Virus record (IMG/VR): IMGVR_UViG_3300050014_000054 | Location: 1-37,616 of that record | Source: a virus | Reading direction: 5' to 3' (one strand) | Length of the DNA: 37,616 bases | Part shown: positions 2,873 through 26,306 of the stretch, piece by piece | Layout of the letters: the number at the start of each line of letters is the position of its first letter | Position numbering within the stretch: the first letter of the stretch is position 1 | Notes under the pieces: model-generated | Database searches by the model: none | The model's input: the letters and a program-made list of their open reading frames with translations, nothing else | Told to the model about the DNA's origin: nothing | Made by a program: the position numbers and the translations under genes

Positions 2873-3148
2873 CTATTTCCCCGGTCGGATCTGATCGAGT
2901 TGATTGCTCATGTGGCGCAATAATTCGCGCTGATCATCCTGCGCCTGGCGGATTGAGGCGATATCAGTCGGGAGAGATTTATAATCTGCCCTTAATTGAA
3001 TGATTTCAGAAGTGTTCTGACGTGTCTGTGCATCGCCCGTAGCCTGCGACCAAATGGTGCCAATGGCTAATGCGAAAATCGTAATGATGGCGCTAATCCA
3101 TTGCGGTTCGCGATACCAGACTTTTTCGGGCATGGTTGGCCGATCCAT
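2873..3148 (-). CDS. Single-helix membrane protein with coiled coil (holin-associated candidate)
   Basis: The ATG at 3146-3148 overlaps the TGA of the fibre gene (TGATG) and is preferred over a TTG one codon upstream. The 91-residue product has one membrane helix at about residues 17-34 (WISAIITIFALAIGTIW). A helical, heptad-like polar region with IIQLRADYKSLPTDIASIRQ and a C-terminal DQRELLRHMSNQLDQIR segment follow. The plan resembles XhlA-like or spanin-accessory proteins. Together with the next gene it probably forms the membrane part of the lysis system. Function is inferred. Confidence 0.6.
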   Translation of the reverse strand: MDRPTMPEKVWYREPQWISAIITIFALAIGTIWSQATGDAQTRQNTSEIIQLRADYKSLPTDIASIRQAQDDQRELLRHMSNQLDQIRPGK

Positions 3149-4206
3149 CAAATTGGAGTGGCGACAGGATTTTTCGCGCCCTCTAGAACGGACAGCCGAG
3201 CGCGCAATGCCTTAATCTCAGCGAACGCCATCGTCAACGGCTCTGTAAGAGCGGTAGACCACGGCTGAAAGCCATCGTCTCCGGGGCGCTTGGAGAGATC
3301 ATCATCACCCTGTCGCACTAGTTTGGGAGCAACCGACAATAGGTCTTGCGCCATGGGTCCTATGCCATGTTCGCCCGTATCCCACGTGAAATTCCACAGC
3401 TCGATTTTGTCGAAGACATCGCCAGGATCATATGGGCTTCCCACGGTCTTTCGGCGCGCGTCTGACGTCGTATTTACCGTTATCGCATTGGCGCCATTCG
3501 GCACAATCGAACCGGCATTGTTCGTGTTGCTGAAGAACTCAAGATAGGTGGGTGACGTGCTATTCAGACGAATAGCTACCGCCGTAACTAGATTATTGCT
3601 GCCCGTGTAGGCGAATTGGGCCGCGTTCCCGTTCAGGTTTTCTATTGTCAGTAGCGATGATGCCGGATTAAGAGAAGATGTCGCGTTGCTGCTAAATGCA
3701 AAGGCGCTGAGAACACCAGTTGATGCATTGAACGTCAGATTAGCGGAACCTGCAAAAAATCCGCTGGAATTATATTGAACCTGTGTATTCGATCCTGATG
3801 CCGGGATGGCGCTATAGGACAGCGCGACATTCGTGCCGTCACAATAGGCTATCGTTGAGAAGCCTTGCAGAAGTGTGACGGTCGTTCCGCCACCAGCGGA
3901 TGAAAATGTGATGCTATAAGCGCCGGTCGTATTGTTGAAGATCGACCACGTTCCGCCGATTCCGGTCGGCAACTGATAATTGACCGCCGCCGTCAATAAG
4001 CCGCTCATGATGATGATGCGCGGGCGGTATTGAGTCAGGGTTAGGGTGACGATGCCGGATGCAGAGACGACGTTGATGGAAGTCGTATTACCGAATACGG
4101 CGTCGATAGCGTCCCAGTCAGCATTAACCGGGACATCCCAAGTGTTTACATCGTCGCCGTTTGCGGGCTTTTCCAGATGGATGTTAGTGCTAAAACTGGA
4201 TGCCAT
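3148..4206 (-). CDS. Tail fibre with C-terminal S74 chaperone domain (352 aa)
   Basis: The N-terminus (THLEKPANGDDVNTWDVPVNADWD-like segment at about 8-34) is of a type common at the start of virion-attached fibres. A Ser/Thr/Asn-rich beta region follows to about residue 245. The C-terminus is an intramolecular chaperone of peptidase family S74. Ser248 and Lys253 in SDARRK match the catalytic Ser-Lys pair, and GIGPMAQDLLSVAPKLV is the usual downstream motif. S74 domains trimerise the fibre and are then released by self-cleavage before the Ser. A C-terminal helix (AFAEIKALRARLSVLE) fits a trimeric coiled coil. The fibre probably binds the host surface. Confidence 0.85.
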   Translation of the reverse strand: MASSFSTNIHLEKPANGDDVNTWDVPVNADWDAIDAVFGNTTSINVVSASGIVTLTLTQYRPRIIIMSGLLTAAVNYQLPTGIGGTWSIFNNTTGAYSITFSSAGGGTTVTLLQGFSTIAYCDGTNVALSYSAIPASGSNTQVQYNSSGFFAGSANLTFNASTGVLSAFAFSSNATSSLNPASSLLTIENLNGNAAQFAYTGSNNLVTAVAIRLNSTSPTYLEFFSNTNNAGSIVPNGANAITVNTTSDARRKTVGSPYDPGDVFDKIELWNFTWDTGEHGIGPMAQDLLSVAPKLVRQGDDDLSKRPGDDGFQPWSTALTEPLTMAFAEIKALRARLSVLEGAKNPVATPI

Positions 4207-14003: not shown

Positions 14004-14792
14004 CTATCCTCGCGTCGGCGTGGCGACTAATGCCGGAGATTGCGATGCCCACCCTGTCGATTGGAACCTCTTTCTGGCCTCTTCGACAATCGCGCCTTTG
14101 AGCAGATTTTCATATTGCTCCTCGTAAGACCCCGCCATATTAGGGTCGTTCGATGTGGGGCCGAAGTTGCGTTGGAATTGACTGATGTAGATGAGGCTCG
14201 CCTGCACCAGCAAATCCGGCAAGTATGTCGAAATCCAAGTCGTCCCCGTCGCCGCAAGACTTGGCGTGGCGCTCTGATAGAGCGTCGGCATACGGATAGT
14301 GCCAGTGACATTGACCGTATAATTCAAGTCCGGATACGGGCCGAATAGGATGTTCGTATAGGTATTGCCCCCTGAGAACCCACCAGTATCGGGATTCCCG
14401 CCGTACATAGAAAAATATTGAGGTTGCGCGAGGACACTGGAGTCGCCCCACACATTCTGCATGAACTCCTTACTCACGGGCAAAATAGGAATGGATGCAG
14501 TACCCGAAACAATTGCCAGTGTTTGTATAGTTACAAAATCATTGACCGATATTTGAAGTACATTGTTTCCGGCGGTCAGATTATAAGATCCAGTTGTAAG
14601 CAATTGTTGTAGATCGAGATCACGCTGAATTCTAAGCTCTGCATAATTCAACATCTGAGAAATTATTGAGTTAAACGCGTCATCTACACCTTCGACTACT
14701 CCGTTAACTATCTGAGTATTCACAACAGCCATCGTAGCGACCTGTGTCACATAGCCATTATAGGTCAGCGGAGTGGTATTGGGCGTGGACAT
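14004..14792 (-). CDS. Head-to-tail adaptor-type protein (262 aa)
   Basis: The ATG at 14790-14792 overlaps the TAA of the fibre gene (TAATG), which argues against a start 10 codons upstream. The product begins MSTPNTTPLTYNGYV. An N-terminal helical part (DDAFNSIISQMLNYAELRIQRDLDLQQLL) is followed by a beta segment with ILPVSKEFMQNVWG, LFGPYPD and a C-terminal helix (DLLVQASLIYISQFQRNFG...EEQYENLLKGAIVEEARKR). This is the plan of gp4/gp11-type adaptors that dock under the portal. The 17448-18137 protein has a related plan. The first third of the gene is AT-rich relative to neighbours. Confidence 0.7.
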   Translation of the reverse strand: MSTPNTTPLTYNGYVTQVATMAVVNTQIVNGVVEGVDDAFNSIISQMLNYAELRIQRDLDLQQLLTTGSYNLTAGNNVLQISVNDFVTIQTLAIVSGTASIPILPVSKEFMQNVWGDSSVLAQPQYFSMYGGNPDTGGFSGGNTYTNILFGPYPDLNYTVNVTGTIRMPTLYQSATPSLAATGTTWISTYLPDLLVQASLIYISQFQRNFGPTSNDPNMAGSYEEQYENLLKGAIVEEARKRFQSTGWASQSPALVATPTRG

Positions 14793-16573
14793 TACGAATC
14801 GCGCCCTCTGCGGTCGATCCATCCCTGCGTGGTCAGGTAGAGAGATGAATTGATGTTGCCGACGATCCGTCCCCTGATTTGCGCCGACGTGTTGGTGCGC
14901 ACCGTCTGCGATAGCGTGCTGGCCGTGTTGCCGTTGCTGGTAACACCGATCCCGTTAACCGCGGGCAACGTATCCGCTGTGGCCAACGAACTAAGAAGCG
15001 CAGACACCGCGGCGGCGGTGTTTTGGAAGTTCCCCGCCACCATGGCCCCGACGACAACACCGGTTGGAACGCTCAGGGTGTAGGACACCGCAGTCTGCGG
15101 CGTCGAGGCCGCTACCGCAACGTCCAGCGTCGGCGTCGACCAAAGGAACTCGTCGCCATTTTGGGTGAAAAGCACCCAGTGCGCGGAGCCGTCGGTGAGC
15201 ATGGCGCCAATGCGGCGGAACAGCGTGTAGTTCGTGGGCAACGTCGGCGTCGTCGCGGAAAGCGAGCACAGGACGTCCACGACGCCGGTGTCAACGCGCT
15301 GGATCAGATAGGCATGATACCAAGTGGTGTTGGCGATCGCGCCCGTGTCCAGGCTCCCGTTTCCAGTCCCAAGAGCCCATGCGCTGGTCGTCTTGGTGAA
15401 GGCGCTCGCCAGGGCCATCGAGGCGGTATTGGTTGAGTCTATCGCGACACCCGCCGCGATCCCAAATGTCGATGAACCCCCAGCTGTCGATAGGGTAAGG
15501 CCGGTCAAATATGAACGGAGCACCGGGCCTTGTGTGGATCCGGTTCCCCCGGCGGTTACCGGAAGGGTTCCCGTTGTCAAAACTGAGGTGGAGGTTGCAT
15601 ACACCGCACCACCACTCGTGAACGACGTCAGGTTCGTGCCGCCGTGATTGGTAGCTAGCGTTCCCGTGATGTCAGCTGTGAGAGAGACGGAGCCGAAGGT
15701 GGGCGCTCCAGCCGCATTGCCATGCAGAACTGTCGTCGTGGTTCCGAGAGAGCCTAATGCGGTCGGCGCGGCGCCCACTCCACCGCCAAGAACAAGTGCG
15801 CTCGCGGTCAATAGCGCACTCGACGCCATCGTGGATGTGGAGGCGAAATACGGCATCCCACCGCTTGTTCCCGCCGTTAGGCCCGTGCCGCCATTAGCGA
15901 CAATCAATGTGCCCGCTAAGGTGATGACGCCTAACGTCGGGCTACTAGGAGTGAGGCCTGTGGTTCCAGCGCTGAAACTGGTGACGCCGACGCTTGAGGC
16001 GGCAGCCCAAGCTGGGATGCCCGCAGCGACCGTCATCACCTGACCGCTGGAGCCTACCGTTAACTTAGCCAGCGTATTGCTGGCCGACGCATAGATCATA
16101 TCACCGGTGGCGTAGATAGATTGCGCCGTGCCGCCATTTACGGCCCCAAGGACGCCTATTACACCCGTCGTGAGGGGCAGTCCTGTCACATTGGTCATGA
16201 CGCCGCTAGCAGGCGTTCCCAGGGCCGGCGTAATGAACGTCGGCGACGTGAGGGTCGGTGTCGTAGCCAGGACAATTCCGCCAGAACCCGTCACAGCGAG
16301 CCCCAGGGCCGTCTGGACGCCAGTTCCCAGAGCGGTTAAACCAGTGCCCCCATGGGCAGCGTTAAGCGTCCCAGCGAGCACCACGGCGCCGATAGATGGT
16401 GTGTTCGGCGTAAACCCGGTCGAGCCCGCACTGAAAGACATTCCGCTTCCAGTGGCCGTTGCGATCTGCGCCGTTGTGATCCGTACCGAGACGCCAGCCT
16501 GAACCGCCTCCATCTGCTCGGAACCATTCAAGGCAATGGCCAAGGGTAGATTCGGAATGGTCTCCCCGGACAT
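14792..16573 (-). CDS. Repetitive tail fibre/appendage protein (593 aa)
   Basis: The N-terminus MSGETIPNLPLAIALNGSEQMEAVQAG is of the virion-attachment type. Residues about 40-350 consist of repeats with the core A/T-G-T-L-x(3)-H/N/A-G-G-T-G/N, for example AGTLNAAHGGTGL, AGTLIVANGGTGL, TGTLATNHGGTNL and TGTLPVTAGGTGS. These are typical of beta-structured trimeric fibre shafts. The C-terminal part (about 370-593) is a separate beta domain containing NTTWYHAYLIQRVDTG and TLFRRIGAMLTDGS, a head domain common in phage appendages. No S74 chaperone is visible. It is flanked by adaptor and zinc-ribbon virion genes. Confidence 0.8.
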   Translation of the reverse strand: MSGETIPNLPLAIALNGSEQMEAVQAGVSVRITTAQIATATGSGMSFSAGSTGFTPNTPSIGAVVLAGTLNAAHGGTGLTALGTGVQTALGLAVTGSGGIVLATTPTLTSPTFITPALGTPASGVMTNVTGLPLTTGVIGVLGAVNGGTAQSIYATGDMIYASASNTLAKLTVGSSGQVMTVAAGIPAWAAASSVGVTSFSAGTTGLTPSSPTLGVITLAGTLIVANGGTGLTAGTSGGMPYFASTSTMASSALLTASALVLGGGVGAAPTALGSLGTTTTVLHGNAAGAPTFGSVSLTADITGTLATNHGGTNLTSFTSGGAVYATSTSVLTTGTLPVTAGGTGSTQGPVLRSYLTGLTLSTAGGSSTFGIAAGVAIDSTNTASMALASAFTKTTSAWALGTGNGSLDTGAIANTTWYHAYLIQRVDTGVVDVLCSLSATTPTLPTNYTLFRRIGAMLTDGSAHWVLFTQNGDEFLWSTPTLDVAVAASTPQTAVSYTLSVPTGVVVGAMVAGNFQNTAAAVSALLSSLATADTLPAVNGIGVTSNGNTASTLSQTVRTNTSAQIRGRIVGNINSSLYLTTQGWIDRRGRDS

Positions 16574-16576
16574 GGC

Positions 16577-17311
16577 CTAAATCCCCGTCTGCGGTATCGT
16601 CTCGTAAGCTCTCGGAAGCCCCACTAGCGCCGTTACGATGTTTGTCGTTGAAGTCAGAAGCGACCCAGCAGCAATAACCCTATTCACTTGGTAGGTAAAT
16701 GCCGTCGCTGTGGTCACGATCACACTGTAGAAGCCATCGGCTTCATTGTCCGATGCGCCCTCAACCGAAATCTGCGCATTGGTCGCCAGACCGTGTGGCG
16801 CTGAGCACGACACGGAGATTTGGTCAGTTCCGTTCGCTATGAGTGACAGAATGGGTAGACGAACTCCGTAGTGCGTCACGCCGTTCAGGGGCATGACCGC
16901 GCCCTGTTCCAGACCATTGGGCGGTCCAATCGGTTGCGTCGTGCGGGTGCTGCCGTCCTGCGTCAAACGCTGCACGGTCGGCGGGATAGGGAGGCCGGTC
17001 ACGGGATCGATTACAGGGAGCGCCGAGACGATGCGGTAGTCGGTGGAGTCGGCGGTGAAGTTCTCGACGCGCGCCTGGATGATGGGCGTCGGATCAGCTG
17101 GGACCACGATTGCGCGGAGTTGCTCTTGGGGCGTGTCGTAGCAGTCTGAGCAGACAAGAATGAATGTGTTAGCGAGTGCCGCGCCGCGCCAGTCGTATTG
17201 CCAGCGGAGATTGACGAAGTTGTAACGGAATCCGCAGCGATCACAGATTGCGTGGGCATTTGGATTCGATGGGGATGTGCGGGCGCGGCCTGATTTGGAG
17301 GCGTAGGACAT
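16577..17311 (-). CDS. Virion-module protein with N-terminal zinc ribbon (244 aa)
   Basis: Near the N-terminus are CDRCGF (about 23-28) and CSDCYD (about 54-59), two CxxC knuckles about 30 residues apart, flanking the conserved-looking LRWQYDWRG. These four Cys form a likely zinc ribbon. From memory this N-terminus is widespread in podovirus-like genomes at the same locus. The C-terminal 100 residues form a beta-rich module (DQISVSCSAPHGLATNAQISVEGASDNEADGFYSV split by turns). Its start overlaps the stop of the 46-residue nuclease remnant by one base. Role unknown; structural by context. Confidence 0.78.
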   Translation of the reverse strand: MSYASKSGRARTSPSNPNAHAICDRCGFRYNFVNLRWQYDWRGAALANTFILVCSDCYDTPQEQLRAIVVPADPTPIIQARVENFTADSTDYRIVSALPVIDPVTGLPIPPTVQRLTQDGSTRTTQPIGPPNGLEQGAVMPLNGVTHYGVRLPILSLIANGTDQISVSCSAPHGLATNAQISVEGASDNEADGFYSVIVTTATAFTYQVNRVIAAGSLLTSTTNIVTALVGLPRAYETIPQTGI

Positions 17312-17451
17312 TATGCCTTCTCCGCAAACGCGAATGACAATCCTTTGCCAGCCGTTTTATAGGCGCGGCGACCATGCCCCTTTCCCACGTAAAAGCAGAC
17401 ATCCTTGTCAGGACGCCAGTGTTCGTAGACGTAGAATTTTTTGGCTGTCAT
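17311..17451 (-). CDS. Truncated GIY-YIG nuclease-like remnant (46 aa)
   Basis: The ATG at 17449-17451 overlaps the stop of the adaptor gene (ATGA) and the TAA shares a base with the next start (TAATG). The product begins MTAKKFYVYEHWRPDKDVCF, then YVGKGHGRRAY. The YVY-x(10)-YVG-K-G spacing and the following Arg match the first catalytic motif of GIY-YIG endonucleases. Full-length members run past 90 residues and need a later catalytic Glu, absent here. It is either an inactivated homing endonuclease kept in frame or a repurposed small protein. Both overlaps show it is still fitted into the operon's translation. Confidence 0.7.
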   Translation of the reverse strand: MTAKKFYVYEHWRPDKDVCFYVGKGHGRRAYKTAGKGLSFAFAEKA

Positions 17452-18137
17452 GCTCTGAAATACGGAGCGATAGTTGGTGAGATGTATTGTTGAGCAGTCT
17501 CGATGTTGGTATCGGCAGCCCTAGTATAAGATAGTTCTGCTAATCCAGATAGCATTGAAACCTTATCTGGAGCCCAGATTACAGCTAACTCTACCGATAA
17601 CGCATCAGTAAAACATTTAAGCCATAAATACGGCACATCAACATTTTGCCCACTCGTAAAATTAGCGTCCTGTATTTGACGCAATACATAGAATTGAAAC
17701 GATGTTTGCGTACCATCTGGAACGGGCCACAATGTTACTGTCGGATTTAATAGTCTATCATTCCAAAAGGTCGTTGGGAAACCTTGCTGTTGTTTGTTTG
17801 GGTAACTGGAATATTCAGTTCTGCTTATAGGCAAAATTAGGCGGTCTGTCGTAACGCCGCCGCTGGTAGTCGAGATATACCCATCAAGAATGACTACCGT
17901 GCTCGGGTCAACCGAATAGGTGGCTGTGCCCTGCACAAGCGGAGTCGTCAGCAAATCCACCTGCCATAGGTTCACGCCGCGATTGCTAAAATCGACACAG
18001 ACCATGTTAGCGCCCATACGGGCGCTTTCCATATGCTCTTGCAAGAGCGCTGCTGATCGGATGCCGCAGCGATTGAACGCATATAGCACCGCCTCACCGA
18101 GGCCGGGGTTAAAATTATACGTGGAGCTAGTTGTCAT
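17448..18137 (-). CDS. Second head-to-tail adaptor-type protein (229 aa)
   Basis: An N-terminal helical part (LGEAVLYAFNRCGIRSAALLQ, then HMESARMGANMVCVDFSNRG) is followed by a beta part. That part holds ILPISRTEYSSYPNKQQQG, FPTTFWNDR, PTVTLWPVPDG and FYVLRQIQDA, and ends in a helix (LSVELAVIWAPDKVSMLSGLA). WPVPDG and FYVLRQIQDA are characteristic of phage head-tail joining proteins near the portal ring. Base composition at 17460-17860 is clearly more AT-rich than the surroundings. A GGGGG-type ribosome binding site precedes the start. It is probably one of two adaptor rings of the short tail. Confidence 0.72.
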   Translation of the reverse strand: MTTSSTYNFNPGLGEAVLYAFNRCGIRSAALLQEHMESARMGANMVCVDFSNRGVNLWQVDLLTTPLVQGTATYSVDPSTVVILDGYISTTSGGVTTDRLILPISRTEYSSYPNKQQQGFPTTFWNDRLLNPTVTLWPVPDGTQTSFQFYVLRQIQDANFTSGQNVDVPYLWLKCFTDALSVELAVIWAPDKVSMLSGLAELSYTRAADTNIETAQQYISPTIAPYFRA

Positions 18138-18330: not shown

Positions 18331-18492
18331 CTAGTGGCCAAGTTTCAAGCCGGACATGATTAAGGTTCCGACCGCTGCCAGTGCCATCATAACGCCAAAT
18401 AGCCACCCTGCGGCCTTCTCCAAGCCCCCGCCCCGGCCCTGGCTCTCATATCGAGCGTTCTCCAAGGCCAGCAGGCCACGGAACAGCTTCAT
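18331..18492 (-). CDS. Small single-helix membrane protein (53 aa)
   Basis: The start MKLFRGLLALENARYESQ at 18492 is chosen because GGGGAGA lies 7 bases upstream; an earlier in-frame ATG 12 codons upstream lacks such a site. A polar N-terminal part rich in Gly and Arg (QGRGGGLEKAAG) precedes one membrane helix at about residues 28-48 (WLFGVMMALAAVGTLIMSG). The tail is KLGH. It lies between the signal-peptide fibre and the 49-residue protein. Unknown function; an envelope role beside the exported-protein cassette is possible. Confidence 0.62.
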   Translation of the reverse strand: MKLFRGLLALENARYESQGRGGGLEKAAGWLFGVMMALAAVGTLIMSGLKLGH

Positions 18493-18566
18493 CTTGGATC
18501 TCCCCAGAAGGTGGGCGAACAGTCGCACAGCTTCGCTGGTTCTGCAAATTCAGTACGGCGACATGG

Positions 18567-19778
18567 CTAGAACCCAATGGCATCGAAGACGATCACGTCG
18601 GACGCAACGGTGGTCCCAGTAACGGTGCAGGACGTGGTGCTATAGGCCGTCTGCGCCAAGATATCGGCCACCGTGGTAATGTCGTGGGTATTGCACACCC
18701 AACCGTTCGGGGCCGTGGGTAGCGCAATGATGACCGTTTGGGCCGTGCAGGTCGCCGTGAACTTGCCGGCAGTGTTGCCGCCGACCTGGGAGGCGGTGGT
18801 GCAGGTTCCGGTTAGAGTCGGGGCCGAGCCGCCAGCTACGATGCCCCCATTAAGAATTACTTTTCTGCTGCCAGGGGTCAACACCACGTCACTACTGGTG
18901 GAAGCCAGGGTCAAGGCGTGAGCAGACGCCAGTACCTCTGCCTGCGCCGACGATGCGAGAGTAAGCACGCCATTGACGATGGTCAGGTTGGGGTTGTCCA
19001 ACGCCACGCCGCTGCTATCATGGCTAAAGATCGCGCCATAGGTCGAGAACCCAGTGAACTCTAATGTACCGCCAGAGCCGATCTGTGTCAGGCCGGTTCC
19101 CATGTAATTCAGCGCAGCACCGCCATTGTAAAAGCAATAGTTGTTTGTGCCGTGCACTAGAACGGGACACCACATTCCATATTGATTGGTCAGCGTTCCA
19201 TTGTTGATGGCGTCCAGCATTTGGAAACCGTAGGAATTCGCGACCGTCGCCCCGACGTCGACCGTTGGCTGATGGGTGAGCCCGGAAACGTCAGAGACTG
19301 TATTCGTGATCGAGATATGCGGGCGGCTCTGGAAACAGTGAGTATGGTTATCGGCAAGCGATCCCTTCGTCTGCACAACGCAGTCGTAAGAGGCATAACC
19401 TCCCGAACCGCTGCTTTGCTGATAGACGCCTTCGTCGCGGAAGGCATGAGAGCCTCCGCTGCTTAGAGGGTTGGTCGCGGTGCGCAGGGCTAATACAGCG
19501 GAGTCGTCTCCGCTGGATGCGTTGGTGCCAACAGCGACCGAACCAGCGAGCGTCGGCGACGTCGCCAGGACCACGACGCCGGATCCGGTCGTTCCGTTGG
19601 ACAGGTCAGAAGCGGCGGCTTGGGAAACAACGCCTGCGCCGTTGCTCTTGAGCGCGCCCGTCGTAGAGGATACGCCGGCCGGCGAGACCGGCCCGGTCAA
19701 CGACTGGGCGCGGACCGGCTGAACGGCGAAGGTCGCCGCGAAGGCCAAGATGATGATCGCGATCAGAAAACGCTTCAT
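18567..19778 (-). CDS. Fibre-like protein with Sec signal peptide (403 aa)
   Basis: The ATG at 19776-19778 gives MKRFLIAIIILAFAATFAVQ then PVRAQSLTG, a textbook signal peptide with likely cleavage after VRA. It ends one base before the upstream gene's stop. The rest is a Ser/Thr/Gly-rich fibre-like beta protein: NGTTGSGVVVLATSPTLAG resembles fibre shafts. Residue pairs such as GTCTTAS/ATCTAQ, WCPVLV/NYCFYN and VCNTHD/TSCTVTG suggest disulfides, as in exported proteins. Virion fibres normally lack signal peptides, so this is odd. It may be displayed on the host envelope or be a fibre with an acquired leader. Confidence 0.72.
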   Translation of the reverse strand: MKRFLIAIIILAFAATFAVQPVRAQSLTGPVSPAGVSSTTGALKSNGAGVVSQAAASDLSNGTTGSGVVVLATSPTLAGSVAVGTNASSGDDSAVLALRTATNPLSSGGSHAFRDEGVYQQSSGSGGYASYDCVVQTKGSLADNHTHCFQSRPHISITNTVSDVSGLTHQPTVDVGATVANSYGFQMLDAINNGTLTNQYGMWCPVLVHGTNNYCFYNGGAALNYMGTGLTQIGSGGTLEFTGFSTYGAIFSHDSSGVALDNPNLTIVNGVLTLASSAQAEVLASAHALTLASTSSDVVLTPGSRKVILNGGIVAGGSAPTLTGTCTTASQVGGNTAGKFTATCTAQTVIIALPTAPNGWVCNTHDITTVADILAQTAYSTTSCTVTGTTVASDVIVFDAIGF

Positions 19779-19779
19779 A

Positions 19780-20034
19780 TCAGTTGGCCTCCACGGTGGC
19801 GGGCGAAGACGCAACACTGGAGATGCAGTTAACCGCGTCAGCAGGGACAGGGTAGGATGACCACGTTCGGGTATTTCCGGGCTGGATGGTGAACGACCCG
19901 GCAGTATTCAGGACAGCAGTCGCCCCGAAGGCGCAGACGATGCCAGGAGCACACCCGCCGCCAGCGTTGATCGTTTGGGCTTCAGCCGCACCGGCAAAGG
20001 CAAGGAGAGTTAGGACGCTTGCGAAGGCTCTCAT
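19780..20034 (-). CDS. Small exported Cys-containing protein (84 aa)
   Basis: MRAFASVLTLLAFAGAAEAQ is a clear Sec signal peptide with an AEA cleavage site. The mature part is about 64 residues, beta-prone, with three Cys (GGCAPGIVCAFG and NCISS) that could form a disulfide. It contains LNTAGSFTIQPGNTRTWSSY, a beta-strand pattern. The start overlaps the previous gene's stop (ATGA), so translation is coupled to a second exported protein upstream. Target membrane or periplasm is inferred; no homolog is recognised. Confidence 0.68.
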   Translation of the reverse strand: MRAFASVLTLLAFAGAAEAQTINAGGGCAPGIVCAFGATAVLNTAGSFTIQPGNTRTWSSYPVPADAVNCISSVASSPATVEAN

Positions 20035-20486
20035 TGGTAGACCGCCGAAAAGGCGTGGCCTGTGGTGGGAGCCGTGATGGTGATTGCGTCCGTAACGACA
20101 ATGCTACCGCTGGCGCAACTGAACGTGCCGCCTGCTAGAATAGTGAACGGCGCAGCCATCGTGCCCACCTTGACCGACAGGACTTCGGTCGCAGTGGTGG
20201 GATTCTGGATCAAGCATCCCTTGCGGGTGGAGCTAGCCGCGATGGCGGTCTGATAGGTGGTGCCGGTCGTAACCGTTCCAGAGGCGTCGGTCGATGTAGC
20301 GCCAAGTGGTTGAGTGATGACGGTTTCGCCTGATCCGCCCGTTACATTCACGTTCAATCCGTGGTTCGTGATCGTGACGGCATCGGTATTCGCCGCGTTC
20401 TGAATCGTGACCGGAGTCGCCGCCAGCGCGGGGACAGCCGATAAAATCGAACACCCGGAAAATAGAGCGATCAGATATTTCTTCAT
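20031..20486 (-). CDS. Exported beta-sandwich protein with Sec signal peptide (151 aa)
   Basis: MKKYLIALFSGCSILSAVPA plus LAA is a strong signal peptide (basic n-region, hydrophobic core, ALA-type cleavage site). The mature protein is all-beta, with a C-terminal domain (RKGCLIQNPTTATEVLSVKVG, TFSCASGSIVVTDAITITAP) of a type common in phage surface proteins. Two Cys in it could pair. It is the first gene of a three-gene exported set. A GGGGA ribosome binding site is visible upstream of the ATG. It may coat the virion or the cell envelope; function unknown. Confidence 0.7.
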   Translation of the reverse strand: MKKYLIALFSGCSILSAVPALAATPVTIQNAANTDAVTITNHGLNVNVTGGSGETVITQPLGATSTDASGTVTTGTTYQTAIAASSTRKGCLIQNPTTATEVLSVKVGTMAAPFTILAGGTFSCASGSIVVTDAITITAPTTGHAFSAVYQ

Positions 20487-20495
20487 CTCTATCCC

Positions 20496-21146
20496 CTAGT
20501 ACGGCGTGTCGCCAGTTTGCAAGATGGTGGTGGTGACTGATCCGGTACCAGAGTTGAGGATCACACGAATCCACTGGGGCACAAACGTATAGGTCGCCTG
20601 CATGGTCGCGCTCGCGGCAACAAGCGCCAAATCCGGGAAGTTCTGCCACGTCATTGCATTCGGATTTACTGGCGAAGTCGGAGAGTTCGGATCGTCCATC
20701 GTCTGTTGAACCGTATAGTTCGCGGTTCCTGAGACGACGCAGGCGAGCGAAATCGACGGGTTGGCCCATCCATCCATACGCACCCACGGCGATGCAGCGA
20801 CGCCGTTCGTGCCGATCTGGATAGCGCCGGTCGCATTGGCAGAAATCGTGACCGACGATACGGTTTTGTAGCTGAGCACGGTAGCGACCGTCCCAATTCC
20901 TGTTCCCGCCACCGTCTCGCCAATGGCGTCACCGGCCCAATTTGTACCGACCAGTACAAAGTTATGCCCTACCTCACTAGCCGCGAAGGTGAACAGAACC
21001 TGGCGCGCCTTATCGAGGATCGCAACGCCGCCAGTCACGATCGTACCGTTCAGGGTGATGGCGCCGGCATTGGGCGTCTGGGATTGCGCGATATTGTTCG
21101 CGGCGGCGGTGACTAGAGGTCCGACTGTGACAACGATGGGGGTCAT
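20496..21146 (-). CDS. Virion surface/decoration-like protein (216 aa)
   Basis: A beta-rich protein without signal peptide, starting MTPIVVTVGPLVTAAANNIAQSQ. It contains FTFAASEVGHNFVLVGTNWAGDAIGETV and a C-terminal FVPQWIRVILNSGTGSVTTTILQTG. The last segment resembles phage surface proteins of about 200 residues found near capsid genes. A terminator-like hairpin lies upstream (21171-21191) and an AGAGGAGAG site precedes the ATG, so expression may be partly separate from the capsid block. Exact role unknown; virion component by context. Confidence 0.65.
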   Translation of the reverse strand: MTPIVVTVGPLVTAAANNIAQSQTPNAGAITLNGTIVTGGVAILDKARQVLFTFAASEVGHNFVLVGTNWAGDAIGETVAGTGIGTVATVLSYKTVSSVTISANATGAIQIGTNGVAASPWVRMDGWANPSISLACVVSGTANYTVQQTMDDPNSPTSPVNPNAMTWQNFPDLALVAASATMQATYTFVPQWIRVILNSGTGSVTTTILQTGDTPY

Positions 21147-21219: not shown

Positions 21220-21702
21220 CTATTCCATTTCCATGTCTAGGGACCGACCTTTGGGCGCTTCACCGTGGCGGGCCGAGGTGAAGGGATTCTCGTCAGACGA
21301 CGCGCGACCACCAGCCTTGCGCGGTTTGCGGCCGGCGTGATGCTTGGCGTGCTCGCCCTCGACATGACCGACGTGCTTCTTGTGGACTTCGCCGCCGCGC
21401 TTCTTGGTGGCTTCACCCTCAGGGCCGAAACCTTCGTGCATGACGTGGCCGCCACGCTTACGGGCTTCGACCTTACCGCCCGTGCACTTGTGGCACTTGC
21501 AAGTGTGGTGGTGAATCTCGCCACCGTGCTTCTTGTGCTTGGCTTCGACGTGGCCACCGCGCTTGCGCTTCTCGGCTTCGTCCTCGATCTTGGGAGCGTG
21601 CGTATAGCGGTCGCCCTTCGTTTCGATGTCCATCTTGGCTTCGTTCACGCCGCCGGTTTCGCGGTGCTTGCGCTCGTCGTGATGTTCTTTGTGGCCCTTC
21701 AT
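21220..21702 (-). CDS. His/Lys-rich GG-repeat protein with CxCxxC cluster (160 aa)
   Basis: An extremely charged protein of Lys, His, Glu and Gly. It carries repeated basic-GG motifs: RKRGGHVEA, KKHGGEIHH, RKRGGHVMH, KKRGGEVHK and RKAGGRASS. Cys68, Cys70 and Cys73 in TCKCHKCTGG form a CxCxxC cluster surrounded by His, a probable metal site. The segments KKHGGEIHHHTCKCHKCTGG and GEHAKHHAGRKPRKAGG have clear counterparts in the 355-residue protein at 26937-28004, but in the opposite order. No globular fold or membrane segment is apparent. Function unknown; a capsid-internal, nucleic-acid- or metal-binding role is plausible. Confidence 0.75.
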   Translation of the reverse strand: MKGHKEHHDERKHRETGGVNEAKMDIETKGDRYTHAPKIEDEAEKRKRGGHVEAKHKKHGGEIHHHTCKCHKCTGGKVEARKRGGHVMHEGFGPEGEATKKRGGEVHKKHVGHVEGEHAKHHAGRKPRKAGGRASSDENPFTSARHGEAPKGRSLDMEME

Positions 21703-22764: not shown

Positions 22765-23679
22765 CTAGTTGGTGGGGAAAGAACCGAAGATCGAGCGCCA
22801 GTTGTAGTACGAGAAGCTGTAGCGCTCGTAGCCCTTGACCAGCAGGTTATCGGTGACGAAATCGACCTGCATGTCAGTCTCGAAGGCCACGCGGGTCATA
22901 TAAGACATGCCGTCGATATTGGTCAGCAGGAACCACGCGAAGGATGAGGTCAGGAAGTCGTTGACCATGTAGCCTTCGGGAAGGCCGCCGGCAGTCGTCA
23001 GGATAGCGTTGACATCGTTGTCGGCGGTGCCGGGGCGCAGTTCCGTCTTGGTCAGACGGATGGCGACCGGCTCAAGTTGCGGCGGCACGATCAGTTTGCG
23101 ACCGCGAGCGAACACCTTCAGGCCAGCTTGGTCGCGGAAGTTGGTGCGGATCGAGATCATGCTGTTGAGCAGCGTGGACTCGTTGAGGTCCGCTTGCACC
23201 GCAGGCGTATTGGCGACAGTGCTGCCGTCAATCGGGTGGGTCGTCGCGCAAAGCGCCACACCGTCGCCGCCGACCGACGCATTGTAGGTCGTGGCAGTGT
23301 TCAGGAGGTTGGCGCCGTAGATTTCCTTCGTTTGATTGAAGGATTCGATCAGGCCCAGGTTCGACGGGTGAAACTGCGTCTTGTAGAGGTTGTCGTCGAT
23401 GGCCTTGCGGGTGATCGCGTAGCCAAGGGCGATTTCCGTGTGCTCCTGGTTGTATACGTAACGCTCACCAGCGCCATTATCGAAGGACGTTTGACCGCCC
23501 TCAGTCTTCAATTGCGCCAGGCCGAGATACCGCATTTCAGCGGTGCGTTCGAGCGCCATCTTGGAGTTGTGCTTGGTGAAAATCTTGTCGTACTGAGACG
23601 GGATCATCTCGTACTTGCCCTCTACCCCGCGTAGGCCGGGGAGGAGCAGATCTTTGATTGCAGAGAGATTAACAGCCAT
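22765..23679 (-). CDS. Major capsid protein, HK97-fold, gpT-like (304 aa)
   Basis: The 304-residue product matches the Mu gpT-like/HK97-fold major head proteins. It has an N-terminal arm (AIKDLLLPGLRGVEGKYEMI), ERYVYNQEHTEIALGYAITRKAIDDN (E-loop to spine helix region), FNQTKEIYGANLLNTAT, a loop with HPIDG, and KLIVPPQLEPVAIRL in the A-domain. The C-terminus ends WRSIFGSFPTN. No N-terminal protease-processed delta domain is evident; a separate scaffold is encoded upstream. A GGGGAGA ribosome binding site precedes the ATG. It forms the icosahedral shell around the packaged genome. Confidence 0.85.
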   Translation of the reverse strand: MAVNLSAIKDLLLPGLRGVEGKYEMIPSQYDKIFTKHNSKMALERTAEMRYLGLAQLKTEGGQTSFDNGAGERYVYNQEHTEIALGYAITRKAIDDNLYKTQFHPSNLGLIESFNQTKEIYGANLLNTATTYNASVGGDGVALCATTHPIDGSTVANTPAVQADLNESTLLNSMISIRTNFRDQAGLKVFARGRKLIVPPQLEPVAIRLTKTELRPGTADNDVNAILTTAGGLPEGYMVNDFLTSSFAWFLLTNIDGMSYMTRVAFETDMQVDFVTDNLLVKGYERYSFSYYNWRSIFGSFPTN

Positions 23680-23693
23680 GGATCAATCTCCCC

Positions 23694-24635
23694 TTAAATG
23701 CCGGCCAACTGCTTATTCATGGCGTAATTGAACGCCACGATAATGCGGTTGTATGCGGTGGTCGCGTCGTTGCCGTTTTGGCCAGCTAGCGGGCTTGAGC
23801 CGATGGCCACGTTGTTCTGCAAGTTGACGATGCGGAACGGCAGGTAGGCCGGCGCGGTCGGCAGCGTGGTCAACGTGTATTGATCGGCGAAGAAGGTCGA
23901 AAGGCCGTTGGCAGTGTTGCCGTTGACGCTCGCGGGCGAGGCGCCAGAGACGGCATAGGCGAAGCCAATGTTCTGCCCGATGTAAGCCGTGCTGACCGCC
24001 GTCGAAGTCGTATTGGAGTTGGCCGTCTGCACGCTGAACTGAGCGTTCGGATCGGTGATGACGTAGGCTTCGACCGAGGTGCTCGTGTTGGCGTCAGAGC
24101 CGGGATAGTAGTTCGACCAAGTGACGCGCTTCTGAGCGACCGAGAGATATTTGCACCCGACGAACACACCCGCGACCGGCACATAGATCGTCGTGGTGCC
24201 CTGAGTGAGGGTGCTGGAGTACGCGGCCCCGACATTGAAGGTGACGGTGGTCGTGGTGGAGGCGGTGACGGGATATGTCCCGTTGATGCCGCCGCCGGTG
24301 GCGAAACTCGTGCCGGTAATGCCGATGATCGAACCGACGGGCGGCGCCCATGCGTTCGGAGAGCCGGGAACGCCGCTCGTGATGGCGGTGAAGGTTGCCA
24401 CCGCGACGCCCGCTGTGACCACGATGCCGCTGACGGTCAGGGTAACGGGCGCGTAGCCTTGGGTGACGAAGCCGGTTCCGACGCCGGTCACACCAGCAGC
24501 CATCATCACGGGATCACCGAAGAAGACAGCGCCGGTGTTCGACGAAGAGATTTGCATCGCGACCTGTTCGTAGGTCGGAGCAGAACCAGTTCCCGAATAT
24601 TGGCTGAAACCGTTGGGCGCGGACGTATTCGCCAT
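23694..24635 (-). CDS. Capsid decoration-like protein with inserted beta domain (313 aa)
   Basis: The two ends (NGFSQYSGTGSAPTYEQVAM, VFFGDPVMM and later VFVGCKYLSVAQKRVTWSNY, IGQNIGFAY, FRIVNLQNNVAIG) fit the phage capsid-associated decoration family usually about 150-200 residues long. Between them, about residues 62-155, sits an extra Thr/Val-rich beta module (TLTVSGIVVTAG, GINGTYPVTASTTTTVTF). This explains the larger size. The gene precedes the capsid gene and has its own promoter. Its start codon and Shine-Dalgarno lie inside a long hairpin. It is probably an outer-shell stabiliser. Confidence 0.72.
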   Translation of the reverse strand: MANTSAPNGFSQYSGTGSAPTYEQVAMQISSSNTGAVFFGDPVMMAAGVTGVGTGFVTQGYAPVTLTVSGIVVTAGVAVATFTAITSGVPGSPNAWAPPVGSIIGITGTSFATGGGINGTYPVTASTTTTVTFNVGAAYSSTLTQGTTTIYVPVAGVFVGCKYLSVAQKRVTWSNYYPGSDANTSTSVEAYVITDPNAQFSVQTANSNTTSTAVSTAYIGQNIGFAYAVSGASPASVNGNTANGLSTFFADQYTLTTLPTAPAYLPFRIVNLQNNVAIGSSPLAGQNGNDATTAYNRIIVAFNYAMNKQLAGI

Positions 24636-24667
24636 GATGGAAGACTCCTTGTTAGGAGGTCCATCAT
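24634..24667 (-). promoter_or_regulatory. RBS/start-codon-masking hairpin of the decoration gene
   Basis: On the minus strand ATGATGGA (24667-24660) pairs perfectly with TCCATCAT (24641-24634). Inside it CTCCT pairs with AGGAG around a 4-base AACA loop, with a 3-by-1 internal bulge. The inner AGGAG is the Shine-Dalgarno (9 bases before the ATG), and the outer arm contains the first two bases of the start codon. If folded, translation initiation would be blocked. Control at this step is inferred. Confidence 0.6.
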
Positions 24668-24704
24668 CTCGCGCCGAGGAGATTATGACCGGAAATTCGC
24701 AGTT

Positions 24705-24724
24705 CCCTCCACACCGGGGGAGGG
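24705..24724 (-). promoter_or_regulatory. 5' stem-loop at the start of the capsid-block transcript
   Basis: On the minus strand CCCTCC and GGAGGG form a 6-bp stem with an 8-base loop. It begins about 7 bases after the -10 hexamer, so it would form the 5' end of the capsid mRNA. Such 5' hairpins stabilise phage and bacterial mRNAs. This depends on the promoter call. Confidence 0.4.
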
Positions 24725-24730
24725 CGGTTA

Positions 24731-24760
24731 TGAATACGTCGATATTTTAGCGTCTGTCAA
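24731..24760 (-). promoter_or_regulatory. Promoter for the decoration/capsid block
   Basis: On the minus strand a perfect TTGACA (24760-24755) is followed by an 18-base spacer and TATTCA (24736-24731) as a -10 element. It lies just downstream of an intrinsic terminator and about 95 bases before the decoration start. The -35 is strong and the -10 imperfect, so activity or factor dependence is uncertain. Confidence 0.55.
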
Positions 24761-24766
24761 CTGCCC

Positions 24767-24793
24767 AATAAAAAGGGCGGCACGAAGCCGCCC
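24767..24793 (-). terminator. Strong intrinsic terminator after the scaffold block
   Basis: On the minus strand a 7-bp perfect stem, GGGCGGC and GCCGCCC with loop TTCGT, is followed by TTTTTATT. It starts 25 bases after the stop of the 191-residue gene and ends the terminase-portal-scaffold block. The capsid block has its own promoter immediately downstream. Confidence 0.85.
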
Positions 24794-24817
24794 AATTCAT
24801 CGTTTTATCCAGCAAAA

Positions 24818-25393
24818 TCAGTCTTTTGGTATTTCCACCGGCGTATAGGATTTCTTGACATTAGCGCGAACGCGCGGGTCATCTCGCTCGAATTGGCCTT
24901 CTGGGACCGAATTGAGTTGCGCTTCCTTCTGGCGCACCTGATTGCGCGCCTTGCGCAGTTCGATATCCCGCGCTTCGTCGGAAATAGATTGCGGACGCTC
25001 CATCAGTACCATGCCCTTGCGGTCAATGGTCTTAAACCGACCGTTATCGGGCATGTATGAAGGGTGACGATCAGCCGGAACCGCCGTCCAGCCGCGACGG
25101 GCGATCTGCACCTGATAGGCAGGGTCTTCCTGGCCAAGCGTCGTATGGCGCTTCCACTCGTAAGACCACCCATCCGGAACGTCTTTGGGATCGATATAGA
25201 AATCATCGGTCCCCTCATCCATGTCGCCCAGGTGGCCGCGCAGTTCCGCAGCTCGTTGTTCGGCACGGGCGCGAGGGTCATCTGCCCGCATATCGGGACG
25301 CGAATCAGCGCGGGCGTCTTTGTCTACGGTCGTCATCGTTGGATTCTCCGATTGCGGTGCACGAGGCATCCGACTGACATATTTACGGGCCAC
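24818..25393 (-). CDS. Conserved-type phage head-module protein (191 aa)
   Basis: The GTG at 25393 follows a GAGGAG site at a good distance. A charged, disordered N-terminal part (residues 1-60, rich in Asp, Arg, Ala) precedes a compact domain. The domain has DPKDVPDGWSYEWKRHTTLGQ, YQVQIARRGWTAVPADRHPSY and DRKGMVLMERP. The pattern WSYEWKR...GW..VPADRHP...LMERP is, from memory, common in podovirus-like head clusters next to the scaffold. The last 50 residues are helical and charged. It ends the late block before a terminator. Unknown biochemical role. Confidence 0.72.
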   Translation of the reverse strand: MARKYVSRMPRAPQSENPTMTTVDKDARADSRPDMRADDPRARAEQRAAELRGHLGDMDEGTDDFYIDPKDVPDGWSYEWKRHTTLGQEDPAYQVQIARRGWTAVPADRHPSYMPDNGRFKTIDRKGMVLMERPQSISDEARDIELRKARNQVRQKEAQLNSVPEGQFERDDPRVRANVKKSYTPVEIPKD

Positions 25394-25403
25394 ATCGGCT
25401 CCT

Positions 25404-26306
25404 CTAGTTGGGCAGCTTGCCTTCGCGCTGAAGAGTTATCTTCTGCTTGGCATATTCGGTATCGCTCATATCCATCATCTGGGCCATTTCGCGTTCGGCA
25501 GCGGTCAGGCGCACGGTATTGGGGCGTTGGCCGTTCGTCGAACTGCCCTCACGGCTAACTGGAGCCGCAGAAGGACTAGCGCGACGCTGACTCGACGCAG
25601 CGGCGTCCGAAAGAGCATCGCCGCCGTCACCAGCGGCATCGTTCGACTGACGCAGTTCCAGTTTGCGCTCGACGAAATCGAAATAGGCGTCGGTATCAGC
25701 CACGAAGCCCTCATCAATCGCGTCTTCGTGCGCTCGAACCATCTTGCGGTTAAGACGCTGATCCGTTGCGAACTGAGGATGGCTCCGTACCCAAGACGCC
25801 GAACGTGGCGACAGTTGTCCGGCGAACGATTCGACCAGATCGACAGTGCGAGGTTCCCGCTTGGGTTGGCTTTCGAGCGCTATCTTGCCCTGTTCAAGCT
25901 GCATGAGCTTGGCAGCGTTCGTGGACATATCCAATTGGACATCCGCCGCCGCGTCAAAGTCGCCGGCCGCCATCGCGTCTCGATAGCGTCCCTTGAGAAT
26001 ATCGTTCGACTGCTTGATCGTATCGATGGCATTCGTCACAAGGCTCAGGTTCGTGTCTTGGACGTTGTTCTCTGCGGCAGCAACCTTGTGCTCGGCCTCA
26101 CGGGCGCGCTTGTCGGCGTCGGAGCGCGCTTGCTGATCGGCAGCACGAGCGACCTTCTCATCCGCCAGTTGCTTCTTGAGGGTTTCGAGACCCTCTTCCG
26201 GCTCGATCACCTTCGGTTTTGGAGTGGCGCCCTCAACCTTGACGACCTCAGCCGCCGGGGCGTCCTCAATCACAACGTCGATATCGTCTTCGATGGTATC
26301 GGTCAT
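25404..26306 (-). CDS. Scaffold-like protein (300 aa)
   Basis: The start MTDTIEDDIDVVIEDAPAAE at 26306 follows the co-chaperonin stop by 5 bases and is preferred over an ATG 41 codons upstream inside that gene. The acidic N-terminus is followed by a long coiled-coil region (about 40-115; ETLKKQLADEKVARAADQQARSDADKR), a middle helical domain and a disordered Ser/Ala-rich segment. The C-terminal helix ends YAKQKITLQREGKLPN. This architecture and position before the capsid gene fit a scaffold that templates prohead assembly. No protease motif is visible, so removal may be by exit rather than digestion. Confidence 0.75.
   Translation of the reverse strand: MTDTIEDDIDVVIEDAPAAEVVKVEGATPKPKVIEPEEGLETLKKQLADEKVARAADQQARSDADKRAREAEHKVAAAENNVQDTNLSLVTNAIDTIKQSNDILKGRYRDAMAAGDFDAAADVQLDMSTNAAKLMQLEQGKIALESQPKREPRTVDLVESFAGQLSPRSASWVRSHPQFATDQRLNRKMVRAHEDAIDEGFVADTDAYFDFVERKLELRQSNDAAGDGGDALSDAAASSQRRASPSAAPVSREGSSTNGQRPNTVRLTAAEREMAQMMDMSDTEYAKQKITLQREGKLPN

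Follow-up and report, generated by a model that had tools for sequence, protein, structure and literature searches.

Three consecutive genes in the virion module of a tailed phage code for proteins that each begin with a Sec-type leader, and the explanation favoured here, at slightly better than even chance, is that of an accessory cassette for proteins of the tail-fibre/adhesin class, which would be exported through Sec, cleaved, disulfide-bonded and joined to virions at lysis. The window, i.e. the whole stretch of DNA analysed, is a 37.6-kb IMG/VR record of this phage, with terminase, portal and major capsid protein encoded on the minus strand. The genes of the trio, termed P1, P2 and P3, lie inside the virion module between the conserved gene g216 and a head-tail adaptor of the SU10 type; the features needed in the following are compiled below in window positions.

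22765 to 23679, minus strand: major capsid protein (phrog_371, E=2.7e-9), the query for finding backbone relatives
20496 to 21146, minus strand: g216, conserved virion-module gene, upstream boundary of a variable slot
20031 to 20486, minus strand: P1, 151 aa; predicted Sec leader (residues 1-22), short variable part and conserved C-terminal domain
20421 to 20486, minus strand: predicted leader of P1, MKKYLIALFSGCSILSAVPALA, followed by ATPV; score 12.3
20034 to 20324, minus strand: P1 C-terminal domain; residues 91 and 124 of P1 are invariant Cys, and a model of low confidence is all-beta
19780 to 20034, minus strand: P2, 84 aa; predicted leader and about 15 aa common to 255-aa relatives, remainder unrelated
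19978 to 20034, minus strand: predicted leader of P2, MRAFASVLTLLAFAGAAEA, followed by QTIN; score 13.0
18567 to 19778, minus strand: P3, 403 aa from the ATG; predicted leader, fibre-type repeat (SNGTTGSGVVVLATSPTLAG) and C-terminal domain
19707 to 19778, minus strand: predicted leader of P3, MKRFLIAIIILAFAATFAVQPVRA, followed by QSLT; score 6.2, core hydropathy 3.56
18570 to 18863, minus strand: C-terminal domain of P3, with 4 of the 8 Cys of P3 and 73% identity to the leader-bearing L006:5956-7392
18331 to 18492, minus strand: 53-aa protein with a single TM segment, 5' end within 18466-18549
17448 to 18137, minus strand: SU10-type head-tail adaptor, downstream boundary of the slot

An initial sequence-only reading of the window had described three coupled open reading frames with Sec-type leaders, followed by a 53-residue membrane protein, and both descriptions hold. 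The leaders were recognised by eye and by a scoring program, the genes of P1 and P2 share 4 bp (ATGA), and a gap of 1 bp separates the stop of P2 at 19780 from the ATG of P3 at 19778. The adaptor was assigned through phrog_12985 (E=8e-12) and through Pfam PF24175 (E=1.1e-5; 26.4 bits, just below the cut-off of 27). The phage carries other, leaderless fibre-like genes at 14792-16573 and 3148-4206, so that its possession of a fibre does not depend on the trio.

Leaders, Cysteines and Structure Models

The leader scorer was home-made and combined a cleavage-site matrix, based on E. coli leaders, with charge and hydrophobicity rules; one of 31 control leaders failed, and the scores serve as a guide, not as a verdict. 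Among shuffled N-termini of 129 phage genes a score of 5 was reached in 0.25% and a score of 10 in none of 6450. The predicted design of a leader for Sec and signal peptidase I, with a positive n-region, a hydrophobic h-region and small residues at -3 and -1, is strong in P1 and P2, whose own N-termini scored as high after shuffling in only 3 and 6 of 2000 cases, respectively. By the same measure the leader of P3 is weaker (243 of 2000), although P3 has the strongest hydrophobic core in the trio. A lipobox with Cys at +1, as expected of a lipoprotein processed by signal peptidase II, is absent from P1-P3, the +1 residues being Ala, Gln and Gln. Among the minus-strand genes of the virion module, only P1-P3 score as leader-bearing at their own start; the remaining positives in the window are a lipoprotein-like frame at 836-1150 and a few frames with internal starts or on the wrong strand. 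This lipoprotein-like frame, with its lipobox-like start (MLRKVLLACACMATVSC), overlaps an Rz-like gene (phrog_312, weak), and the two together (836-1544) are a probable spanin pair.

The mature parts had been described as beta-rich and as carrying paired cysteines. Pairing applies to P1 and P3, with 2 and 8 Cys, and fails for P2, which has 3; the relatives of P2 have 255 aa and 4 Cys, and P2 is probably a shortened or recombinant version of them. Beta structure is seen in the C-terminal half of P1 only, where the AlphaFold model reaches a pLDDT of 65-74 (50 overall), the model of P3 (pLDDT 35) being uninformative. Whole-protein searches gave no family match for P1-P3 in Pfam and PHROGs and no match for P1 and P3 among cultured phages. 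Neither P1 nor P3 could be related to a solved structure; the similarity of P3 to a sensor kinase (4k0d, E=0.0019) was judged a chance match, the sequence of P3 being repetitive. A Foldseek search with the P1 model returned two uncharacterised proteins of uncultured phages in BFVD (best 3.8e-6) and no convincing match in the PDB.

A Variable Slot in the Virion Module

The site of the trio was compared in 80 backbone relatives with capsid proteins 88-92% identical to that of the window. Their common gene order, with gaps in some, is capsid, g343 or another gene, gHis, g216, the slot, the SU10-type adaptor, g244 and g593. The slot is empty in most relatives of sufficient length, contains leaderless repeat-rich or adhesin-/fibre-like genes in L044, L048, L060, L061 and L100, and is occupied in L087 by a different leader-bearing pair of 176 and 640 aa. 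Since its contents differ among capsid relatives, the trio is taken as an accessory insertion into a variable slot of the virion module. No strong leader was present at the slot in the annotated relatives MW202675, CRP-901, HTVC027P, DSL-LC04, QDWS535 and 023Pt_psg01.

Two further genes of this region deserve mention. A 160-aa protein rich in His/Lys/Gly repeats (KRGGHV) is encoded at 21220-21702, adjoins the capsid genes and is kept in many relatives. A 46-aa GIY-YIG fragment at 17311-17451 has versions of 228-256 aa nearby in relatives, which suggests that it is what remains of a homing endonuclease.

Related Cassettes and Probable Exchange Between Phages

When the trio was sought in other phages, as the sequence-only reading had proposed, parts of it were recovered: the C-terminal domain of P1 in six other phages with other backbones, at 52-92% identity, P2-like proteins, longer than P2, in L002 and L003, and the C-terminal domain of P3 in L006. 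The N-terminal parts of the P1 homologues are dissimilar, and nearly all of those with a readable start have a leader of their own; their genes usually adjoin further leader-bearing genes of the tail-collar, GDSL-hydrolase or fibre-like kind. In L002 and L003 the cassette consists of a P1-like gene, a P2-like gene, whose product shares its first 32-33 residues almost entirely with P2 of the window, and a leader-bearing GDSL-type hydrolase (L002:4108-5292, L003:7078-8403; Pfam PF13472, E=1.2e-6), possibly a secreted glycan esterase. The cassette of L002 includes in addition a leader-bearing protein of 152 aa, and a leader-bearing protein of L005 matches Pfam Collar above the cut-off. In a homologous pair from L002 and L006 the mature part is highly conserved, and the leaders differ in their letters and keep their design (AAPAFA/SP and APALALA/NP, the slash marking the predicted cut). 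Scans for the C-terminal domain of P3 and for the L002/L006 leader family added few new loci, and the sole genome match of the P1 domain is a 7-kb MAG contig with no reliable host.

The DNA itself is shared in part. Positions 20304-19931 of the window are 84-92% identical to unrelated phages (92% with L011, on the same contig as L002), and 84 bp at 18549-18466 match the beginning of a gene with a leader in L011/L111 at 96% identity. These identities point to exchange between unrelated phages, which can explain the shortened P2 as well as the hybrid 53-aa frame; the latter looks like a recombinant join, as its start lies within the 84-bp stretch. It could accordingly be argued that the trio is mobile "moron" cargo, kept by recombination at conserved leader DNA and devoid of a selected function in this phage, and the shared DNA, the mosaic joins in P2 and the 53-aa frame and the variability of the slot all agree with such a view. 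We regard it as improbable, given that the three frames are intact and coupled, that the leaders differ among most cassettes while their design is kept, and that the leader-bearing proteins show Cys parity.

A more serious alternative, although clearly on the unlikely side of even, accepts export and dispenses with the virion: fibre parts would have been turned into decoys or receptor blockers, either soluble or bound to the envelope. Such proteins might, again with a probability well below one half, stop superinfection or keep new virions off debris, in the manner of T5 Llp or of a receptor-destroying enzyme. In L002, L006 and L007 the cassettes lie close to endolysin genes, the GDSL-type partner could alter surface glycans, and the window phage has its separate leaderless fibre-like genes. 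The missing lipobox speaks against placement of P1-P3 in the outer membrane; a further argument comes from the survey described in the following section.

A Tail-Fibre Domain With and Without a Leader

An N-terminal domain with the motif PYxLTNGxxADAxQVMANFNxI is common to a leaderless neighbour in L002 and to leader-bearing genes in L006, L007 and L112. Relatives were found by scan (192), and 80 loci were sampled, leaders being called by a simple charge and hydrophobicity rule. A leader directly precedes the fibre domain in 56 of the 80 loci and is lacking in 24. A pair of Cys flanks the domain in 35 of the 56 leader-bearing proteins vs 0 of the 24 leaderless ones (Fisher p=3e-8); after dereplication at 80% the counts are 28/41 and 0/16 (p=1.7e-6). 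The NG motif follows the predicted cut after 11 residues (median and mode), and in leaderless genes the same number separates it from the initiator Met; the predicted cut thus regenerates the leaderless N-terminus. In the leader-bearing genes the median distance from initiator to NG is 32 residues. Mature leader-bearing cassette proteins with any Cys have an even count in 20 of 22 cases (p=6e-5), compared with 84 of 205 other genes.

The leader-bearing and leaderless proteins occupy one locus, the same tail gene (mostly 540-720 aa) being found directly upstream in 51 of 56 and 16 of 24 loci, respectively. On the tree of this upstream tail protein the leader state changes eight times, seven of the changes being forced by well-supported branches. 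Among tree-independent pairs the Cys pair follows the leader in about five of seven and opposes it in none, a borderline result (median p 0.06). Several leader-bearing proteins of other phages match PHROG tail-fibre families (best 3.4e-23, 1.6e-14 and 1.2e-11), and together with the repeat motif of P3 these domain matches support the assignment to the fibre class. The terminases of the phages with leader-bearing fibres are only 25-29% identical to the closest cultured ones, and no cultured phage was found in a search with the leader-adjacent fibre domain alone. A match to the fibre of SU10/phiEco32 type (Kuravirus; PDB 7z47 chain D, 1.5e-7) was considered for this domain and rejected, as the alignment places it at the neighbouring stem motif GANSDITSLTGLTTPLSxxQGGTG, which occurs in leader-bearing fibres of other phages. 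This match is internal to the coliphage fibre, with no leader before it, and the similarity touches neither the leader-adjacent domain nor P1-P3.

Tail fibres normally attach through their N-termini, and one may therefore ask whether the hydrophobic segments are uncleaved parts of cytoplasmic virion proteins, serving for instance in trimerisation or docking; the leaderless versions at the same locus would fit this picture. It is very improbable, because the combination of a K/R n-region, a hydrophobic core and an AxA-like site recurs with different letters in many lineages, because the Cys pair and even Cys counts accompany the leader, and because the predicted cut restores the leaderless N-terminus. 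That the leader stands exactly before the N-terminus of a leaderless fibre, and that the Cys pair occurs only with it, is most readily explained by a Sec leader that works and is cleaved. A functional leader that is cleaved, followed by oxidation, is thus very probable on strong comparative support, and disulfide bonds are probably formed in exported proteins of the tail-fibre class. Export and periplasmic disulfides, as proposed in the sequence-only reading, are well supported by Cys parity, by the association of leader and Cys pair and by the regenerated N-terminus. Its premise that phage structural proteins normally lack leaders needs narrowing, since leaders on fibre-module genes are, as judged from this survey, common in a large group of uncultured phages.

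The same survey bears on the decoy. Where the fibre domain occurs, the protein with the leader mostly sits at the primary fibre locus and has the mature N-terminus of the leaderless fibre; a free decoy would need neither, which counts against it. Virion decoration during lysis is consequently the best supported of the three roles originally suggested for the trio, because in other phages fibres with a leader come from the primary tail-fibre locus, where they are the positional orthologues of fibres without one; no positive evidence was obtained for coating of the cell envelope or for a block to superinfection. Since leader-bearing proteins occupy this locus, the simplest expectation is for the exported copies to end up on virions all the same, once periplasm and cytoplasm are mixed at lysis. 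Joining of virions after export is hence the best reading of gene position and of N-terminus orthology in other phages. For the trio itself the chain of reasoning is longer: the fibre domain is absent from P1-P3, and their link to the class, which consists of shared cassettes, leaders, cysteines and a fibre-type repeat, is not one of homology in all parts. As the trio lacks the domain, and as fibre-like genes without a leader are present elsewhere in the window, action as a decoy or receptor blocker retains a minor share of the probability.

Proposed Pathway and Comparison With Known Systems

According to the favoured explanation, export followed by attachment to virions, each protein of the trio would be made with its leader and sent through Sec to the periplasm, where signal peptidase I would cut the leader and the mature protein would fold with disulfide bonds. 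The mature proteins would most likely meet progeny virions once lysis has breached the inner membrane, and would then attach as surface or tail appendages and take part in binding the next cell. Extended to a large and mostly uncultured group of tailed phages, the proposal is that receptor-binding fibres are routed through Sec, cut and oxidised in the periplasm and attached outside the cytoplasm at lysis, the leader being a switchable add-on that one fibre locus has gained or lost at least seven times; in this general form it is tentative and falls somewhat short of an even chance.

Textbook assembly of tailed phages, fibres included, is cytoplasmic. The virion proteins pIII and pVIII of M13 have cleavable leaders, and pIII has periplasmic disulfides; M13 particles form in the inner membrane, and the cell is not lysed. 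The likeness to the present proteins lies in the leader-bearing virion proteins and the difference in the backbone, which is here that of a tailed phage (terminase, portal, capsid). T5 Llp is a phage-encoded, exported lipoprotein that blocks the receptor and is made during infection. The trio resembles it in being phage-encoded and, by prediction, exported, and differs in the lack of a lipobox and in the fibre-class nature of its leader-bearing relatives. Lom of phage lambda has a signal peptide, is encoded between the spike and fibre genes, and is an outer-membrane beta-barrel (PMC12309495). P1-P3 matched no outer-membrane beta-barrel family. Neither Llp nor Lom is of the fibre class. A literature search, mostly of open-access sources, turned up no account of tail fibres that carry Sec leaders, and the trio is classed here as a variant, undescribed in the literature found, of the tail-fibre/adhesin proteins of phages, its route of biogenesis being probably an unusual one.

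The survey suggests that the oxidising periplasm, and not the cytoplasm, may be where part of the virion is made. If fibres are indeed exported, oxidised and added only at lysis, one step of virion assembly takes place outside the cytoplasm, host-range proteins could use disulfide-stabilised folds disfavoured in the cytoplasm, and the Sec and Dsb genes of the host become host-range factors. In either case, a leader combined with even cysteines provides a simple rule for recognising exported adhesin-like proteins in metagenomic phages, many of them without a family match today.

Leader-Bearing Genes in Other Virion Modules

Pelagibacter phage HTVC023P (L103), a cultured phage with a related capsid protein (41%), has two consecutive genes, gp45 and gp46, between capsid and adaptor (23481-25556). 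The product of gp45 has a leader score of 9.6 and 4 Cys, that of gp46 a leader-like start (3.6) and 2 Cys. The pair thus resembles the trio in its leader or leader-like starts within the same capsid-to-adaptor interval, and differs from it in that no similarity to P1-P3 was seen; both products are annotated as hypothetical proteins. For experiments it is the system most readily at hand.

Three consecutive genes closely follow the portal in L201:10067-14059 (record G012). Two of the products have Sec leaders, with 8 and 14 Cys, and the third has a twin-arginine-like start (SRRLFL) and matches a virion structural PHROG (1.9e-5).
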